Positions 2,389-62,975 of a stretch of DNA of 64,000 nt are shown piece by piece; position 1 is the first letter of the stretch; every line of letters begins with the position of its first letter. The notes under the pieces were generated by a model that was given only the letters and a program-made list of their open reading frames with translations, was not told where the DNA came from and did not search any database. This DNA is from Deroplatys truncata (Eukaryota; Arthropoda; Insecta; Mantodea; Mantidae). The position numbers and the translations under genes are program-made. The stretch covers positions 670,436,118 to 670,500,117 of the forward strand of contig CM060990.1 of assembly GCA_030765065.1 (NCBI GenBank). Reading direction: 5' to 3'.

Positions 2389-3998
2389 CAGCTGTATATA
2401 TTAGAAGAGGTAATCGATTTTTTTATCCTGACACTACGTGAACACTTCGGACGATTTCAATTGAAGGCAACACACCATAATTGTATGTCTGGTATATTGC
2501 AAATACAAAAAATTAAAAGCCGAATTACTTATTTCAGCACTTATTTATTGCGATTATTTAAATCGAAAGTATTTCCGCTCTCTATCCGGTTATCTCTAAG
2601 TTTATATAATGTTAAAACTAATTAACGCAAGATTATCACTCGAATAGATTGTTAAAGTCCTCTACCTAAAATCCAGTATTGCGTATGCAGTAGTGAAATT
2701 TCAATATTGGTAATAGTGTCAAATATTCTCTATCGAAGAAGGATTATCATCTCCCGCCCGCAATTTGCAAATATACATATATATTTTTTCACATTTTTTA
2801 CCTTCAAAGCCCCAGCAGTTGTCTGAAATTGTGTTGTGTTTCATCCAGATTATTTTATCTTTGTAAACTAGGGAACCTAATAAATAAAATTCATGATACT
2901 TCATTAGTTTTGGTATTTATAAATTATAGTGAAGAAAATACTAAGAAATATTAAGTAGGTGTGTTTGTTTATTGGATATAAAATATAGTTTCATTAAATG
3001 TTCTTACTTCTGACTCTATCTAAATTGCAAAACGAAATTTTAAAAATATTATTTAAAAGTATGGGTGTTATAGCAATTATAAGAAGGTTTATAAATTTGA
3101 TTTTCAATGTATTGTAAGTTACTTATAAAATGTTTTCAAATATTTTCATCTCAAAGGTCTAATGTCTTGTTTTGTATCATATAAAAGCTGCGACTGTTCA
3201 CTATGTAGCAGATTTTATTCGTTTTGACTTTAGTACAGGTTCATTTGCAATTTATCTTATTTTTTGTAAGTAAGTTAATATTCTGTGTAAAGAAGACCAA
3301 GGAATATAATGTTATGACTATACGACAGCTAAAAATGGAACCAGTAGTTGATATTTTTCAGAACTAATCGTTATACTTAATAATTTGCTGTAGCTATTCT
3401 TTGTCACCTCCGTAGCATTAACCAGAAAATAATTTTTTTTCGTTCGAAACGTTAGCCATTTGTAATCGCATTTGAAGATTTGGGTTAGAGAGGATATGAG
3501 AATTTATTAATTCTGATATTATCTTTATAATTTATAATAAACAAGAAAATAAATTGTTTATACATAAATTCAGACATTGTTATTTAAAAAAAATTAGCAT
3601 AAAATTGTTTTGACAGACTTTTACAAACTTCTCAGCCCACGTCTAAAACTCGACACTGCGACCGGCTTATTATCTTTGGGGGCTAAAGTTTGTAGTGTCT
3701 TATGTTTCCTATTTATGCTTTTAGCTACCTCTTCAAATAAATTGACAGTTATCTTTATTGATGTTACTGCACGCTCTAAATTTCTATATATCCTGACTTC
3801 TATCTTTTGAGCTATAATATATAATAATCGGTCTCTACACTTAAATTTGCATTAGCAACTAGAAGAAAGTTATTGGAAGAGTATTATATTATGACAGTCT
3901 TCAGTTCTTGCAATGTACAATTGAGTTGGTTTTATTACTAGCGGTAATTTGCCGAAACTCATAAGTGTGTTATGCATTTAATAAAAATCTAGTGGTTA
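1..3998. other. AT-rich non-coding stretch
   Basis: No reading frame here resembles a known protein and the short open frames have no coding character. Near 1516-1535 the bases TTAACCCTAGAACGGGAAG resemble the TTAA plus CCCTAGAA start of piggyBac-type ends, but no partner end is visible. Because the Runt-domain exon at 12.8 kb is on the minus strand and lacks its downstream exons, this stretch may be intron of that gene (inference). Confidence 0.5.
2354..2387. repeat. (TA)n microsatellite
   Basis: About 16 uninterrupted TA units in AT-rich sequence. Confidence 0.9.
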
Positions 3999-4765
3999 CA
4001 AATTATTCTTACGGAAGTTATTTTCCTATTTACTTCATTTTAATTGAGATAAACCTTTGCAGAAATAGCCGCATTAAACATTTCATTACAGATACAAAGG
4101 GTATAGGCATAGTTAAATGTTTAAGAACTGGACGCTATATGCTGACCTTAAAACTCCATACGTTTTCCATGCAGTCGCGAGAAACAGGGGAAATCGGCAG
4201 GACTTTAAAAGAACGCCTAAGTATTGAACAATAATTCGAACTATTAATAACGAATATCTTGGAAATAACTTATGCCACAAAAAGGTTATTTGAAATAAAT
4301 TGTATGTTTTCGTCTATCGTTTAACGTTTACCATTATACAAAATTACACAAAATTACTTCTGCATGAAGAGGACTTCAGAAGCTATTTTTAGAAAATTCA
4401 AGATATACATTTTATTTGCCATACAAATAGCTTTAATGTATGCTATTTTAAACAAAATTTTAGAAAATAAAAAATTTCGAAAATCTTCCATGTAAAAAGT
4501 AGTTTGCAATGGGGGAATTTTCTTGAAAATCTTCATGTCGCATCTTTGAAAGGTACTGAACTTAATTACTAAGTTTGGTGTATGTCCGACTTTTCGTTTT
4601 TTGATTATGTTGTTCACAGACACACATACACATGTTTTTCTAAATTTTTTAAACAGGGGGTCTCAAAACGCGTATTTCCTTTGAAGTCTCGGTATCAAAT
4701 ATTTGGGTGGAATGCTATACCTTCTCTACCTAATAGGTTCGCGGTAGAGAAAGGAACTAATGCCA
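3999..4765 (+). repeat. Dispersed repeat DR-1, copy 1
   Basis: About 0.75 kb of sequence that recurs, diverged, at 20.6-21.4 kb (reverse), 27.9-28.7 kb (forward), 48.8-49.5 kb (reverse) and 54.3-55.7 kb (forward). Shared landmarks in order: a segment around 'ATTGAGATAAACCTTTGCA', a block with 'TATTAATAACGAATAT', a block with 'AAGTTTGGTGTATG' followed by a purine/pyrimidine CA run, and a terminal hairpin in which TCTCTACC near 4725 pairs with GGTAGAGA near 4750. Open frames inside differ between copies and have no recognisable domain, so the unit looks non-coding. The hairpin plus a GGTAGAGAAAG-type sequence at both ends suggests a non-autonomous DNA transposon; the class is inference. Confidence 0.7.
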
Positions 4766-18900: not shown

Positions 18901-19003
18901 AATAGAATAATATACCCGCCTTGCCTGTTATTTTGTAATCCCTTAGTCTGTCTGACTAATCTCTAGCAAGTAACTGCAATGCATACACCCTCTCAAGAAG
19001 TCC
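15901..19003. other. AT-rich spacer upstream of the Runt-domain locus
   Basis: No recognisable coding sequence, RNA gene or mobile element. A CT-rich simple tract lies at about 17715-17800. Short open frames are not supported by codon character or homology. Confidence 0.5.
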
Positions 19004-19285
19004 TCCGTGGTGTGGTGGTTACCAGCCTCTAGTTATCGAGGTCGCGGGTTCAAACCTGACTGGGGGCGGTGGATTTTCTCGAGCGTAAAAATCCTTAGCA
19101 TGGCTTCTTTCGGAAGGGAAGTAAAGCCGTGGGACCGTGTCGTAGATTTACGGCACATAATAGAACCTCAAACCTGATAAAGAGGCCTCTGAGCAAAATT
19201 ACCGGTCTTTCACGCCCAATATAGAAGGGACACTAAGAATCATAGTAGTTACAGAGCGTCCATAAATAAAAGTCAATTTAATTTC
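19004..19285 (+). mobile_element. SINE-A copy (tRNA-derived)
   Basis: The head has tRNA promoter-like boxes (a 'GTGGTGGTTACCAGCC' A-box region and 'GGGTTCAAACC' as B box). The body is shared with copies at 27.66, 36.08, 46.3 and 54.8 kb: GTAGATTTACGGCAC, then GAACCTCAAACCTGATAAAG, then CCTCTGAGCAAAATT, then CTTTCACGCCCAATATAGAA, ending near GCGTCCATAAATAAA. SINEs are non-coding retroposons moved by a partner LINE. Confidence 0.8.
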
Positions 19286-20614: not shown

Positions 20615-21430
20615 CTTTCTCTACCGCGTACAGAGCAGGTAGGGAAGGTTTCTCATACCACATCTAAAACCTACACAGATATTTCACCGGAATTTTGAGG
20701 TATCTTGAATCCAAAAAAGTATTTTTAGAAAAAGTTCCGCGCTCGTGCGCACGTGTGTGTGTTAACAGCATAGTTCAAAAAGGAAAAGTCGGATAAGTAC
20801 CAAACTTGGAATTTAAGTTCAGTATCTTTCAAAGATGCTACGCAATTTTCAAGAAAGTCCCCACGCCCCACCACAACTGACCTTTACATGGAAGATTTTT
20901 CGACATTTTCCATTTCCCTAAGTTGGCTCTAACGAGTTTGATTAAAATACCATAAAGATGTTTACATTATAAATAAAATGTGTATGCTAAATTGTCTGAG
21001 AATAGCCTGTGAGGTTCTCTTCATTCGGAAGGAATTTTATAAAATTTTGTCTAACTGGTAAACGAAGCGAAAGACGAAAAATAACCAATCTATTACAAAT
21101 AACTTTTTTGTGACATTAGCCCTTTCCGAGATATCCGTTAGTAATGGTCCGATTTCATCAATACTTTTGTCATTCTTTTAGAAGTCCGGTCGATATTTAG
21201 TATTTCTCACCATTTCATGGAATGAGTAAGGAATTTTAAGGCCAGCGTATAACGTCCAGTTCTAAAATATTTTAATATCGCTATTCCCTTTTTACCATGA
21301 CGAAATGTGCAATGCAGCTATTTTTGCAAAGGTTTATCTCGATTAAAATGAAGTAGATAGAAAAATAAACTTTCTCAGGAATAATCTGTAAGGCAACAAA
21401 TAAATAATAGAGGCAGAGAAAGTGATGTGA
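20615..21430 (-). repeat. Dispersed repeat DR-1, copy 2 (reverse)
   Basis: The most complete copy of the family. On the plus strand it opens with the hairpin arm CTTTCTCTACC (about 20621), loops to GGTAGGGAAGG, and closes with GGCAGAGAAAG near 21412, giving inverted GGTAGAGAAAG-type ends about 0.8 kb apart. It shares internal blocks with copies 1, 3, 4 and 5. No coding potential seen. Confidence 0.7.
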
Positions 21431-21794
21431 AGTAACACATCGGAGTTTTTGTTGTTTTTGTCTTATTTTTGTTTCTTTAGCTGTCAGTACCAGTATGTTA
21501 CGCTCAAGTACTTGGCTAAAACATACCGCTTAGAACATTCTTTGTTTTTATTCTCTGTAATTTGTTAGGAACCAAAGGACCTACACAAATTTTACTATTA
21601 TATTTTTACGTTGAATATTCCAAAATGCAGAAAATCCACTTGCAATCTAACAGTCGCCCACGTTTATCTTTACAGCAGTGTAAGTGCAAAGACATTTTGA
21701 TCTGCAAACGTAATTACAAGCAACAGATTTACCCTTGGTAATTAATTTTTCTTCCACACAGGACAAGGTTGGAACTGCAGAATCAGAGACTGAA

Positions 21795-27654: not shown

Positions 27655-27920
27655 AACTTTCCGGAGTCATCCTTCATGCTAGCCTCTAGTTTCCGAGTTC
27701 GCTGGCTCAAACCCGGCGGAGGACGCTGGATTTTTTCGTGCATAAAAATCCTTAGGAAGCGAAATACAGCCGGTTGTAGATTTACGGCACGTAAAAGAAC
27801 CTCACGCCTGATAAAAGGGCCTCTGAGCAAAATTTCCTGTGTTTCACGCCCAATAGAGAATGGGACGCTAAGGACCACAGCAGTTAAGGAGCGTTCATAA
27901 GTAAAACTCCATTTAATTTA
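27655..27920 (+). mobile_element. SINE-A copy
   Basis: Head with GGCTCAAACCCG (B box), then the SINE-A body landmarks GTAGATTTACGGCACGTAAA, GCCTCTGAGCAAAATTTCC, CACGCCCAATAGAGAATGG and GCGTTCATAAGTAAA. Compared with the 36-kb copy a short stretch after 'AAATCCTTA' is deleted. Confidence 0.8.
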
Positions 27921-27924
27921 ATTT

Positions 27925-28680
27925 ATGAACTTTCCGGAAATAGCTGCATTACACATTTTCTTATAGTTACAAAGGCAATAGCGTTGGTCAAAAGTTTTAG
28001 AATGGACGCTATATGCTGCCCTTAAAATTTCTATTCTTGCCAGTAAATCGCGAGAAACAACTGAAAATTGACAGAACTTTAATAGAATGTCTAAGTACTT
28101 AACAATTCGAGCTATTAATAACGAATACCTCGTAACTGGCTAATACCCCCCCCCAAAAAGTTATTTAAAATAAACTGTGTATTAAAGAGATCTACATTTT
28201 TTGTGTAGTACATTTTCGTCTATCGCTTAACATTTATCAGTTATGCAAGATTATACAAAATTCCTTCTGAATGAAGTTGAATGCACAGACTATTCCTAGA
28301 AAATTAAAGATATGCATTTTATTTGTCAAATAAATATCTTAAACACGTGGTATTTTAATAAAAATCGCGAGAACCATTGTTTAGAAAATCGAAAATTGAA
28401 AAGTCTCCCATGTAAAGTGTAGCTTGGGATTGGAGTCTTTCTTGAAAATCTTTGTGTCGCATGTTTGGAAGATATTGAACTTAAATGCAAAGTTTGGTGT
28501 GTATTCGATTTTTCGATTTGAGTTATGCTATTCACAGACGCGCGCGCGGACATTTTTTTTCCAAAAAATGCTTTTTTTGATTCAGGGGTAATCTCGATGT
28601 AATCTCGGTATCGAATTTCTGGGTGTAATGCAATACCTTCTCTAATTATAATGTGCGTGGCAGAGAAATTAAAAAATGGG
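27925..28680 (+). repeat. Dispersed repeat DR-1, copy 3
   Basis: Same order of blocks as copy 1: CGCGAGAAACAACTGAAAAT, TATTAATAACGAATACCTCG, a C9 run, AAGTTTGGTGTGTATTCGAT, a CG/CA run, and the terminal TTCTCT...GGCAGAGAAAT hairpin near 28636-28670. Confidence 0.7.
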
Positions 28681-36062: not shown

Positions 36063-36300
36063 GGTTTTTTCCTTGGCATCGTTCAAACTCGGGCAATGGA
36101 TTTTTTCGGGCGTAAAAATCCTTATCATGGCTCCCTTAGGAAAGGAAGTAAAGCCGGTGGCCCCGTATCGTAGATTTACTGCACGTAAAAGAACCTCAAG
36201 CCTGATAAAGAGATCTCTGAGCAAAATTTCCGGTCTTTCACGTCCAATATAGAATGAGACGCTAAGGACCACAGCAGTTCAAGAGATCCATAAATGAAGC
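36063..36300 (+). mobile_element. SINE-A copy, head missing
   Basis: Begins in the body (TGGATTTTTTCGGGCGTAAA) and carries all downstream SINE-A landmarks including GTAGATTTACTGCACGTAAA, CTCTGAGCAAAATTTCCGG and TCCATAAATGAAG. Confidence 0.75.
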
Positions 36301-36589
36301 TCAAATTTTTAATAATATTCCTTTACGAAATAGTTCAACATAGAGGGGCATAGAGATGTAAGGATCATGCCATTGCCGACAGAGCTGTAAAAGTTCGCTG
36401 GACAATTGGGCCTGAAAAACTGCTTTTTTTCATTTTTGTATTGATTAAAATGCCTCGATCCCGGTAGTCTGTGTTAATATTAGTAGTTTTCCATAACACG
36501 CAGTGTAATACCTTGGAAATATTCAAAGTATTTCTTCTAATATGAACAAAGCAATTGGTCGCCCTGCTTTTTAAGAATACCATTTACAA

Positions 36590-48786: not shown

Positions 48787-50319
48787 TACTAGTGGGTAGG
48801 GGAAGTATTGCATTCCGCCTAAAAACTTCATGTCGAGATTTCACCGACAATACATGTTTTGAGGCCTACTAAATACAAATAAGTAAAGGGTACGTGTAGG
48901 TGTTTGTTTTTTTAAATGTCACTAAAAATTCCATACCGATATTTAACCGGAAATACAAATTTTGAGGATCCCTGTATCTAAAAATATATTTTTAGTAAAA
49001 GGTGTGTGTGTATGTGTGTATCTATGAACAGTGTAACTATAAAACGAAATGTCGGATAAATACCAAACCTGGTACTTAGATTTAATACCTTCAAAGGGTG
49101 CGACACGAAGGTTTTTAAGAAAATCCCTCTACCCCAAACTACCATTTATATAGAATACTTTTCGAAATGTTTTATTTTATAAAACATGACCCTCATTTCG
49201 ATTCAAATACTATATATTTAACATATTTACAGGATAAATAAAATGTATATTCTGAATTTTCTGGGAACAGCCTGTGAAGTCTTCTTCATTCGGTCTTGCA
49301 TAACTGGTAAACGTTAAGTAACACACGAGAATGTACTGCACAAACAATATAGATGCCTTTAAAACAAAACAATTTATTTCAAATAAATTTTTCTTTGGCA
49401 TTAGCTATTTCCGAGATATGCGTTATTAATGGTTTGAATTGTTCAATACTGCATTGCACCCCCCTCACAGATTTTTCACTAGCCACTCATTAAGTATGTA
49501 AATGGGTGTAATTAACTTCTAGAAGTCCGTACAAAACAGAAAAACGGCAAGGTACAGGTCTATGCATGTATTGAGCGTATTAGAGGACCGATTTACAAAA
49601 TCTGTAATGTACATATATTGCACAGAAATATTTTACATATGCTGACCCAAAATATCTTGCGGTAAGTTCGTAGTTCGTTTTGAAGATTACATAAATAACA
49701 CATTATACCAGGTTAGAAATTTAAGAAGTTGCCTAGATACGAGTATAGACTTTACATAATTCATATCTGACACAATTACAACATTTGACATAATTATGAC
49801 GCCCCATTTTACCTTTAAACTTCAGCAAATTACAGTTATACGCACCCAATATCTAGAACTCTCGTAATTCAGAAATGCATTCCCACAAACTGAAATTACT
49901 TGAGCACACACGGCAATTGCAAACGGTCAGATTCGGCCAATCCTATTAGGTGTAACAGAAACCCAAAGTACGATATGCAGGACACTTGCCAAAATTCACA
50001 AACCCCTACGGCCAAAACGACCCGACGCTCAAGAGAGAGAAAAACTGCACTCAACCTTTCTCTCAGCTACGGCCTCAAATTCTCCCCCTACCCCCTCTAT
50101 AGGCAGAAACGACTATAGCGCCTCCACCGACACCAATTAAGCAGCGCAGTAACGCCCTCGGCATAAACATAAACAAACTAACTGTAACGGTGATAAATAT
50201 GGAATATACTTGTGCCGAATTTGTATTTACATTTGAATATTTGTAGGAATAATTTGTAGATTAGATTAGATCGTATTTTGTGAGTTCACTAGCAGCCATA
50301 AAGGCTTGTGAACATAGAA

Positions 50320-54602: not shown

Positions 54603-55195
54603 GTGTTAGACCGCTCGCCTCTTACCAAGGTTCAATTCCAGGGACCCGCATGTGGGATTTGCGGTGGACAAAGCTGCGCCTGGGTGGGTTTTCTCCGGTT
54701 TCCCCCGCCATGTTTCCTTCCACCGGTGCTCTCATCCATCATCCACTTCCCTGATCTCATCCAGGATGTGTGGCTGATCACTCTCTCACTCTCTGATCCA
54801 AAAAAGAACTTGAGTTTTAGTTATGAACGCTCTTTAACTGCTATGGTTCTTAGCGCCATTCTATATTGGGCGTGAAAGACGGGAAATTTTGCTCAAAGGC
54901 CTCTTTACCAGGCTTGAGGTTCTTTTACGTGCCGTACATAGACTTTCCCTCCCTTCCGAAGGAAGGAACGTCCACCGGGTTTTAACCCGCGAACTCAGGA
55001 ACCAGAGGCTAGTGGTACCCTTAGATCACGAAGGATGACACTCTCTGATACATAGGTCCTCTGACCCCCGTCAGGTGTCTGACTCGGGTGTTGTCGTACG
55101 TCCTGGGGAGTGTAAGTCCTCGGTCCGAGTGGGCTTTAAGGAGGGAATACTCTAGTCCAGTTGGGCTGTTTCCGCCTTACAGTTAGTTCTTTTTA
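54603..55195 (+). mobile_element. SINE-C copy, interrupted by SINE-A
   Basis: Landmarks GACCGCTCGCCTCTTACCAA, GGTTCAATTCCAGGGACC and GTGGACAAAGCTGCGCC. The 3' part resumes after the SINE-A insertion with GGTCCTCTGACCCCCGTC and GTACGTCCTGGGGAGTG, as in the 51.6-kb copy. Confidence 0.8.
54798..55038 (-). mobile_element. SINE-A copy (reverse) nested in SINE-C
   Basis: Flanked by CACTCTCTGAT at 54787-54797 and 55039-55049. On the minus strand it carries the head (CTCTGGTTCCTGAG, then GCGGGTTAAAACCCGG) and the body to GAGCGTTCATAACTAAA. The middle of the body is deleted relative to the 36-kb copy. Confidence 0.85.
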
Positions 55196-55509
55196 TGTTT
55201 GTATCTGTCTTTTAAAGCTTGCTAGTTAAAGAAGGTTATTCAAAATTCCTTCTAAATGAAACTGACTTCATATATTATTTCCAGACAATTTACGATATAC
55301 ATTTTGTGATGTAAATATCTTAAACATGTGGATCTTTAATGAAACTCGTAAAACCCATTTATGAGAAACTAAAAAATAAAATTTTCCACGTAAAGCATGC
55401 TTAGGAATTAGGGATATTTGTTGAACATTGTTGTGTCGCATGCTTCGAAGATACTAAACTGAAATACCAAGTTTGGTGCTTATCAAACATTTTGTTTTAA
55501 AGTTGCACT

Positions 55510-61289: not shown

Positions 61290-61749
61290 AAAAATTCAAT
61301 CTTATAAAACTCCTGGACCTTATAGACAGGATTTTTCTTCAATACGATTAAAATCTGTCTTTTAAAAATGTCGTATGTAGGTTTCTTAATTTTATCCGGT
61401 AAACTAATGAATAGATTAATGGATGATACTTTAATGCTATTTTGTGTTTTACTATACTTACATTTACTAAAATTAAATATTTTTGCTACTTCTTTTCGGA
61501 TAATTATGAAGTTTTACACAGATTATACTGATGTAGATTCCTCTTAATGTACAATAGACAATTCAATATATATATATATATATATACAAGGAAGAGTGAG
61601 GATTTCAAGTTCAATAAAATGTGGTTTACAATGTGTTTTTGTCGGAACTCCACATAATATTCTTATCGCTCTCTTTTGTAAAATAAAAATCTTGTAACAT
61701 AGGTATGGTTGCCCAAAGTAAGACACCGTAATTTAAAATGGAGTATATA
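61290..61749 (-). pseudogene. Non-LTR retrotransposon reverse transcriptase, C-terminal half (after the mariner insertion)
   Basis: Minus-strand blocks: LNYGVLLWGN, then after a frameshift KIFILQKRAIRILCGVP, HFIELEILTLPC, a (TA)n expansion at 61566-61586 where the family has a YIYE-like segment, and finally LFISLPDKIKKPTYDIFKRQ near the end. This is the thumb and C-terminal region of Jockey/CR1-type LINE reverse transcriptases. It has frameshifts and cannot be translated whole. It continues to the right of the inserted element at 62563. Confidence 0.8.
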
Positions 61750-62562
61750 TAGGGTACTTAAATTATATTCGAACCCACTCGCGGCCTCTCTCTACTGCAC
61801 GAGACATCCGACAGTCGTCGGGGAAATTACGTCGGTAGAGGCGGACTAAAATCCTTAACTTATAATAGATGCTGGAAATTCTGCTCTCGATCAGGCAGCA
61901 TATCTTCTGTAAATATTCTCGCTCACTCTCCGAAGCTCAGCAGCAGGAATTCTTGTGATGAAACGCCTCATTATGATCAGAAAATTGGAGTTTGGTGTGC
62001 GATAGGTGCTAGAAGAATAATAGGGCTCATATTCTTTGATGCAACATTAAATGTAGAGCAATATCAGAGGTTAATTCTAAGGCCATTTTGCAATCGCTTG
62101 ACAAAAGAAGAGAAATCGTATGGTTTGTTCCAGCAAGATTCTGCAACAGCACATACGGCTGCCGAATCATTACATGCAATAAGAGAGGTGTTTGATGACA
62201 GAATAATTAGTGTTGATTGGTGGGCCCCTCGTTCTCCTGACCTAACGAATTGTGATTTTTATTTATGGGATTCTTTAAAAGACAAAGTCTATCGTTCGAT
62301 TCCTCGCACACTACAAAAGGTTAGAGAAAACATTGTGCAAGAAATCACAAGAAATCCTGCTGCTGAGCTCCGGAGAGTGAGCGAGAATACTTACACGAGA
62401 TATGCTGCCTGTTTTAGAGCAGAAGGTCAACAATTTCAGCATCTATTATAAGAGTAAGGATTTTAGCACGCCTCCGCCGGCGTAATTTCTCCGGCGACTG
62501 CCGGCTGTCTCGCGCAGTAGAAAGAGCCCGCGAGTGGGTTCGAATATAATTTAACTACCCTT
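61750..62562 (+). mobile_element. Palindromic mariner-like element (MLE-2) inserted in a LINE
   Basis: 813 bases flanked by TA (61748-61749 and 62563-62564). The two arms, 61750-61959 and 62344-62562, are inverted copies about 210-219 bases long with high identity (outer part TTAAATTATATTCGAACCCA, then CTCGCGG...). The right arm is the natural 3' end, including about 35 codons of transposase. The left arm is the same sequence inverted in place of the 5' end. Only about 384 bases in the centre are unique. The LINE reading resumes on both sides, so the whole palindromic unit was inserted at once. Confidence 0.87.
61960..62451 (+). pseudogene. Mariner/Tc1-type transposase fragment in MLE-2
   Basis: The frame is open from within the left arm to the stop at 62449-62451. 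Native sequence starts at about 61960 with ETPHYDQKIGVWCAIGARRI and continues with GLFQQDSATAHTA (second catalytic Asp), APRSPDLTNCDFYLWD (third acidic residue, Asp, 39 residues on), KVYRSIPRTLQKVRENIVQE and the ending GQQFQHLL. The part before KIGVWCAIG, including the helix-turn-helix domains and first catalytic Asp, is absent. The SPDLxxCDFxLW signature places it with the arthropod DDxD mariner relatives of about 37-41 residue spacing. Not functional, but the retained part has no stop or frameshift. Confidence 0.88.
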
Positions 62563-62975
62563 TATTACTGTAATACACTGACAGTAATGGCTTTTTACTT
62601 ATTTTTTGGCTCATTATACGTAGCATGAACAGTCCTTTACTCAGTTTCCCTGAGATGTAGTCTATGTGGGATTTCCACTCTAATTTAGGTTCAAGATAAA
62701 TACCTAAGAATTTGACTGTTGAAAGATTAAGAGTCAGCAGAAATGAGGTACACAGAATTATCTTGATTAAGTATTAATCTTTTAGAGTCAAACCAATGAT
62801 TTACTCTTAAAGTTACATCTTTAAGTTTACTTGTGCGAGTATCGTTGTTAGTACAACATATATTTAATGCTGAATCATCAGCAAATAAAACGTTTTTAGT
62901 CATTCATCTTATATAGCTTCAGGACTATCATTGATATACACCAGAAAGAATACGGTTCCCAATATAACATTTGTG
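62563..62975 (-). pseudogene. Non-LTR reverse transcriptase, catalytic part (before the mariner insertion)
   Basis: Minus-strand blocks, in shifting frames: ILGTVFFLVYINDSPEAI, then LFADDSAL (the FADD catalytic motif, about 62870-62890), then VNHWFDSKRLILNQD-like sequence and FLGIYLEPKLEWKSHIDYI, then KLSKGLFMLRIMS and LLSVYYS just before the insertion point. This order is that of the palm and thumb of a LINE reverse transcriptase and joins the half at 61290-61749. Frameshifts and stops make it a relic. Confidence 0.85.

Follow-up and report, generated by a model that had tools for sequence, protein, structure and literature searches.

Mariner-type transposons can give rise to miniature inverted-repeat transposable elements (MITEs) in which one end of the parent has been copied over the other. 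Among 27 mariner MITE sublineages described in Drosophila, ten reach between 10 and ~300 copies, and in seven the 3' part has been replaced by 5' sequence, with unusually long terminal inverted repeats (TIRs); the origin of this rearranged kind is called elusive in that account (PMC4161770). The present analysis concerns an element of the opposite polarity, at positions 61750-62562 of a 64,000-nucleotide stretch (the window) from the mantis Deroplatys truncata (assembly GCA_030765065.1, contig CM060990.1, positions 670,436,118 to 670,500,117, forward strand). It belongs to a non-autonomous, high-copy Tc1/mariner-type derivative with two 3' ends (3'-3'), which very probably arose through two rearrangements and was then mobilised in trans, favoured by its paired 3' ends. 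It resembles Dromar7, Dromar11, Dromar28 and Dromar36, in which one end was likewise copied over the other and long TIRs were formed from internal sequence, and a further likeness is that each Drosophila sublineage is derived from a single copy and traced to a full-length lineage (PMC4161770). As described there, all seven rearranged Drosophila MITEs are 5'-5', whereas the mantis element is 3'-3'; the sublineages hold ~300 copies at most, in contrast to 1272 + 334 junction matches here; and, unlike them, the mantis family has kept its intermediate and shows no fixed differences from its parent.

Other systems share single traits with this element. Engineered Mos1 donors with two right ends transposed in vitro at 26-fold the level of the natural pair, and Mboumar-9 performed best with two left ends, the left being its preferred end (PMC4505599). 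Such donors likewise bear two copies of the preferred end, but they are artificial, were assayed in vitro and depend on other transposases (PMC4505599). Should the 3' end be the stronger in this family, a more effective pair would have been acquired by the derivative in one step. Human Made1/Hsmar1 is likewise a near-palindromic, non-autonomous mariner derivative, with arms for which that source describes no coding sequence, unlike those of the mantis element (PMC1784062). Maize Muk, formed from a partly deleted MuDR by inverted duplication, likewise carries an inverted transposon part, and its hairpin RNA gives rise to small interfering RNAs that silence the parent; unlike the element here, Muk is presented there as a single silencing locus rather than an amplified mobile family (PMC1784062). 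In Bari, with identical long TIRs (PMC4877112), and in long-TIR elements of aphids (PMC5490172), the TIRs frame a transposase gene, which is a different build in the accounts given.

A 3'-3' mariner MITE was not met in the open-licence PubMed Central (PMC) literature searched, and its absence elsewhere is not claimed. This family stands apart in its 3'-3' polarity, its copy number, an intermediate that has survived and consensuses identical to that of the parent; amplifying palindromic mariners were already known. An earlier note on this DNA, made from the sequence alone, had remarked that fold-back forms are usually regarded as dead by-products, which is too strong because palindromic mariners, such as the published 5'-5' MITEs, are known to amplify (PMC4161770, as far as described there). 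Rearranged fold-back forms are thus not always dead ends: this derivative occupies well over a thousand places, far above its parent.

Structure of the window element

The element and its parts are as follows.

61750-62562, plus strand: short 3'-3' element (consensus 820 bp)
61748-61749, unstranded: left copy of the TA target-site duplication; TA lies outside the left end in 35/40 copies
62563-62564, unstranded: right copy of the TA target-site duplication; TA lies outside the right end in 34/40 copies
61750-61959, minus strand: left arm, copied in inverted orientation from the parent 3' end (8 bp of the 218-bp consensus are absent in the window copy), from arm-to-arm alignment, with consensus arms 218/218 identical
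61863-61959, minus strand: the last 35 codons of the transposase, inverted and partly preserved within the left arm (97/105 bp)
61957-61959, unstranded: GAT common to both sides of the internal deletion giving the short form (long form ..GTGATTGGTG.. and ..CTGGATGAAACG.., short form ..GTGATGAAACG..)
61960-62448, plus strand: transposase remnant of 163 codons, ETPHYDQK to QFQHLL, an open frame without a start or the N-terminal half
62344-62562, plus strand: right arm, the native 3' end, with 35 codons, stop, 3' non-coding part and 3' TIR

The palindrome was evident by direct alignment. Local alignment of 61742-61959 against the reverse complement of 62344-62569 gave 193 identities over 227 columns, ten of them gap columns, and in a repeat search the same structure appeared as inverted pairs, 111, 81 and 19 nt long and 87-95% complementary. 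The right-arm codons (62344-62448) run into the stop of the transposase remnant at 62449-62451. The observation made earlier, that the left 210 bases are an inverted copy of the right end including about 35 transposase codons and that the element is flanked by TA, is hereby confirmed, with limits exact to the base. Its outermost bases are mixed, TA on the left and TT on the right. That the element has lost its 5' end and carries two 3' ends was borne out by recovery of a native parent with a different 5' side, described below.

The short form as a dispersed family

The 4.29-Gb assembly was searched with the window element as query, and 40 full-length or near-full-length places, window included, were scored of 3054 first-look candidates; the 39 relatives, fetched with 1-kb flanks, are the best scorers to the window and are biased towards it. 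These 39 are 90-92% identical to the window element. The arms align along the whole palindrome in all 40 copies, at 88-97% identity arm to arm, and in the consensus of the 40 the identity of 218/218 bp between the arms excludes chance. TA stands on the left in 35/40, on the right in 34/40 and on both sides in 29/40. The flanks themselves differ: over 50 bp beside either end, the highest ungapped identity in 780 pairs was 50%.

Empty sites gave further evidence of movement. Joined flanks compared with the fetched loci yielded spanning alignments for 12 of the 40 copies, one of which (L011) was a match to its own locus; the site itself was inspected closely in four (L020, L022, L033 and L045), and in each a precise one-TA empty site was present in a paralogous repeat. 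These empty sites and the lack of common flanks in the 780 pairs led to the rejection of segmental or tandem duplication, in place of transposition, for the window copy and the 39 relatives. The expectation of other genomic copies at different TA-flanked sites was borne out, with 1272 junction matches and the 39 relatives in unrelated flanks. Movement of the palindrome as a unit is upheld by the recurring junction, the TA flanks, the empty sites of four copies and the closure of the host frame at the window insertion.

The 40 copies diverge by 2.3-5.7% from their consensus, and the commonest single variant base among them is present in at most 9/40. This fits a homogeneous burst from one founder, a reading that is based on variant counts, not a tree, among copies chosen as the best window matches. 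A right-end T variant occurs in 9/40, window included, and was rejected as a clear subfamily since no other scanned variant is common to more than three of the nine. Gene conversion keeping the arms alike was likewise set aside as at most weak: the same derived base was found on both arms 14 times, against 7.7 by permutation (standard deviation 2.6, maximum 16, 1000 permutations), and CpG sites, moreover, mutate ~2x as fast.

A longer intermediate and the native parent

Relatives with other structures were sought with a pattern in which the bases after the internal junction are preceded by bases that exclude the palindrome. It gave 524 places at ≤3 mismatches, the reversed control giving 0. 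Ten loci were fetched from these, and eight more long and twelve short copies were added later. In seven of the ten the element is longer: its left arm is unchanged, ~319 bp of extra transposase come next and the same right part follows, one of the seven being cut off before the 3' end; an eighth long-form locus, L087, ends soon after the junction. With L080 and L085 (truncated or odd) and L087 left out of the long consensus and the long group, the consensus is 1139 bp and holds a 285-codon transposase frame without a methionine or an N-terminal helix-turn-helix (HTH).

The exclusion search was then repeated one junction outward and yielded 26 places; in 16 of them the upstream sequence was new, and the other 10 are mostly indel copies of the long form. 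Nine loci fetched from this search revealed the native 5' side, and six further native copies were added. After a 5' non-coding part, the 1331-bp native consensus has an ATG and a transposase open reading frame (ORF) of 347 codons. Its TIRs are alike over 51 bp with 4 mismatches and end outside the coding region, so long coding TIRs are not native; the intact parent that the earlier note proposed to look for is thus represented by a consensus without 210-bp coding TIRs. The 1139-bp form had been a candidate for the true parent and was dropped once the native 5' side had come to light through the second exclusion pattern. Of the 15 native copies, one (L095) can be aligned along the whole 347-codon ORF in a single open frame, at 92% identity with 2 gap positions, and another, L091, is an internally deleted native copy. 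A genome search for the parent with Pfam DUF4817 returned, among 30 fetched loci, distant relatives only, with no matching ends.

The three consensuses agree without one difference (native/long 922/922 bp, native/short 604/604, long/short 605/605), and the arms are perfect over 218-219 bp in the derivative consensuses. In the long form, ...TTGTGATT from the inverted 3' end is followed directly by the transposase sequence GGTGCC. At this join the native element has ...ATGACATT|GGTGCC, and the inverted 3' end goes on as GTGATT|TCTTGC, so that ATT is common to both (3-bp microhomology). The short form joins ...GTGAT to GAAACG, and GAT stands at each of the two breakpoints in the long form. The order, from native to long to short, is thus read from these junctions. 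By its junctions, then, the window element is a second-generation element, derived from a longer 3'-3' form by internal deletion. The earlier note had argued that the palindrome already existed when it jumped and was accepted by a transposase; that interpretation is supported with two corrections, namely that the element is of the second generation and that this kind of derivative is known.

Terminal bases vary among the forms. Native copies read AA (7), TA (4) or TG (1) of 12 on the left and TT (5), TA (2) or other (3) of 10 on the right, while the 40 short copies read TA in 35/38 on the left and TA in 28 or TT in 8 of 39 on the right. Native ends are often AAGGG..CCCTT and those of the 3'-3' forms mostly TAGGG..CCCTA.

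Classification

The parent consensus matches the HTH of DUF4817 over residues 6-58 (46.7 bits against a cut-off of 22.6, Pfam), a region absent from both 3'-3' forms. Against Pfam DDE_3 it scores 25.8 bits (E 1.1e-5), under the curated cut-off of 28.6, and it is weakly similar to Sleeping Beauty SB100X (E 0.0026); the short-form consensus of the transposase remnant gives a weak DDE_3 match, and the 164-aa fragment of the window has no Pfam or PDB match at 0.001. The TA duplication (both sides in 29/40), the TIRs and the N-terminal HTH of the parent place the family among Tc1/mariner-type elements. The parent catalytic residues, assigned by motif, are D157, D244 and D278, with 33 residues between the second and third. 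Mariner proper (DD34D) has 34 residues between its second and third catalytic aspartates, and since the parental spacing departs from this, the parent is filed as Tc1/mariner-type only and not in the mariner family proper. The short form has the features of a MITE, being homogeneous, high in copy number (1272 junction matches) and incomplete in its transposase, of which it keeps the last ~163 codons.

The assembly carries a heavy load of Tc1/mariner-type elements. DUF4817 (PF16087) gave 46,649 first-look candidates across the whole assembly, of which 150 were scored and reported above the cut-off.

Copy numbers and ages

Counts of 36-mers across the junctions at ≤3 mismatches gave 57 native, 334 long and 1272 short matches, with 0 in the reversed-pattern controls. 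On C12, four of the 57 native matches cluster within 208.38-208.62 Mb, perhaps as duplicates of a single copy. A Poisson model on the mismatch spectra puts the copies that pass this filter at ~90% for the native and ~93% for the long form, and with pass rates so similar the copy-number contrast does not stem from age. CpG-tolerant 35-mers just inside the ends found 4793 3' ends against 64 native 5' ends (controls 0), so no class with a native 5' end has been amplified comparably. Two 3' ends per palindrome and one per native copy account for ~3270 of the 4793.

Median Kimura two-parameter (K2P) distances to the own consensus are 0.054 for native (n=15), 0.042 for long (n=15) and 0.0465 for short copies (n=12), with p=0.025 for native vs long, p=0.12 for native vs short and p=0.75 for long vs short, in samples hand-picked among the low-mismatch matches listed. 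These values come from local alignments for all 42 rows, an earlier K2P set having been inflated for truncated copies. These distances place the activity of all three forms in roughly the same period, with the native one perhaps slightly ahead.

Separately, a listed pair of 3' ends on C1 (16757254 + / 16757836 -) spans 583 bp, ~145-170 bp below the other short-sized pairs listed.

Origin of the derivatives and alternative explanations

The explanation put forward above runs in four steps. As read from structure, a native 1331-bp element would have exchanged everything 5' of about codon 78 for its inverted 3'-terminal ~218 bp, through ATT, giving the 1139-bp form. This form next multiplied to hundreds of copies. 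Structure and counts together suggest that one 1139-bp copy then lost 319 bp between GAT triplets to give the 820-bp form, which moved as a unit to more than 1000 copies, one of them into the host repeat of the window. Transposase from native copies probably acted in trans on both; mobilisation by the parental transposase is favoured as the natural reading because both derivatives are without the N-terminal HTH and the start codon. We infer, finally, that the 3' end is preferred by this transposase and that two identical 3' ends would be a better substrate than the native pair. Such a preference finds support in the ~6x higher count of the 1139-bp form, a mere 14% shorter than its parent, and in the lack of any amplified class with a native 5' end; the end ratio of 4793 to 64 predicts that the transposase prefers the 3' end and that two 3' ends beat the native pair.

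The rival readings differ in what they leave to the paired ends. An autonomous lineage natively endowed with ~218-bp coding TIRs, in which nothing was lost or duplicated, has counterparts in long native TIRs elsewhere (~460 bp in aphid elements with long TIRs, PMC5490172; ~250 bp in Bari, PMC4877112, as described there), and the 1139-bp form could pass for such a parent. That form, however, lacks both the N-terminal HTH and a start codon for the transposase frame, and copies with a native 5' end together yield an ATG and a 347-codon ORF behind a 5' non-coding part, their TIR similarity stopping at 51 bp; the native consensus rules native long TIRs out, and this reading is extremely improbable. 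Amplification through shortness and non-coding state alone, the two 3' ends being incidental, would agree with the greater abundance of the shorter 3'-3' form (1272 vs 334) and with the two most successful Drosophila mariner MITEs being the shortest (PMC4161770, within the sublineages it covers). It is nevertheless unlikely, as the 1139-bp form is 14% shorter than its parent but about six times as numerous, and the 64 native 5' ends in all leave no amplified short 5'-3' class, though a deleted native copy such as L091 exists. Within the first step, the arm might have come from a neighbouring second copy, two head-to-head natives being fused by one deletion, rather than from template switching in one copy. 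A single deletion with microhomology would suffice for this, and native terminal bases vary, so that the ends could derive from different copies; consensus arms identical over 218-219 bp would nonetheless demand two near-identical donors, and two copies are not positively indicated. We regard the head-to-head origin as possible, though somewhat the less probable.

Several points weigh against this account. Copy number alone is no proof of a better substrate, because a single lucky founder may lie behind each derivative, and shortness (820 vs 1331 bp) could have contributed to the spread. Some 1500 of the 4793 3' ends are beyond the junction counts (4793 vs 2 x 1606 + 57), and further derivatives may be among them. 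For the first event, template switching in gap repair and head-to-head deletion both fit.

With these points in mind, the account in which paired 3' ends favoured mobilisation may be extended tentatively. The family could be a natural case of two strong ends, in which a derivative that was a better substrate than its parent parasitised it and came to outnumber it ~28:1 in roughly one burst. Transcripts of the 218-bp hairpin, which corresponds to the 3' non-coding end and the last 35 transposase codons, may in addition have contributed to silencing of the parent. The family bears on how MITE-like derivatives originate and why a few of them amplify explosively, and here the parent, the rearrangement and the later deletion survive in one genome with readable junctions. 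As the mirror image of the Drosophila 5'-5' MITEs, the family offers a comparison that could reveal if the spread of a palindrome depends on which end is preferred.

The host repeat and other repeats in the window

The element interrupts a repeat on the opposite strand, with the following remnants.

at least 62564-62885, minus strand: reverse-transcriptase-like relic upstream of the insertion, FADDSALN.. at 62730-62885, then in another frame STVKFLG..SVYYSN at 62564-62722
at least 61668-61748, minus strand: reverse-transcriptase-like relic resuming past the insertion (IYSILNYGVLLWATIPMLQDFYFTKES)

On the reverse strand ...KPLLSVYYSN runs to the insertion and IYSILNYGVLLWA (also given as IYSILNYGVLLWATIPMLQ) continues on its far side; without the element and one TA, the two share a single frame. 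The joined 80-residue host peptide matches a dispersed family, the best matches being ~80-87% identical (of 30,377 first-look candidates, 150 were scored). The insertion point is crossed uninterrupted in all but one of the host-repeat matches listed, the window itself aside. Some listed copies have open frames of up to 580 aa, and the family may have been recently active. The earlier note placed the insertion in a long interspersed nuclear element (LINE). A reverse-transcriptase-like relic does stop and resume in frame, and from motifs read by eye (FADD) we take it to be LINE reverse transcriptase; this name is unconfirmed because Pfam, queried with three short host-repeat pieces, and NCBIfam (prokaryote models), queried with the joined peptide, gave no match.

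Just beyond the host relic lies an (AT)n microsatellite of ~21 bp (61566-61586). A dispersed, diverged repeat family, at ~3997-4720, 20745-21450, 27930-28539, 48924-49447 and 55192-55498 of the window, matches the flanks of several fetched loci. A second dispersed family, at ~19000-19277, 27675-27909, 36091-36304 and 54810-54939 with 77-86% identity, hosts the insertions of element copies L020 and L045.
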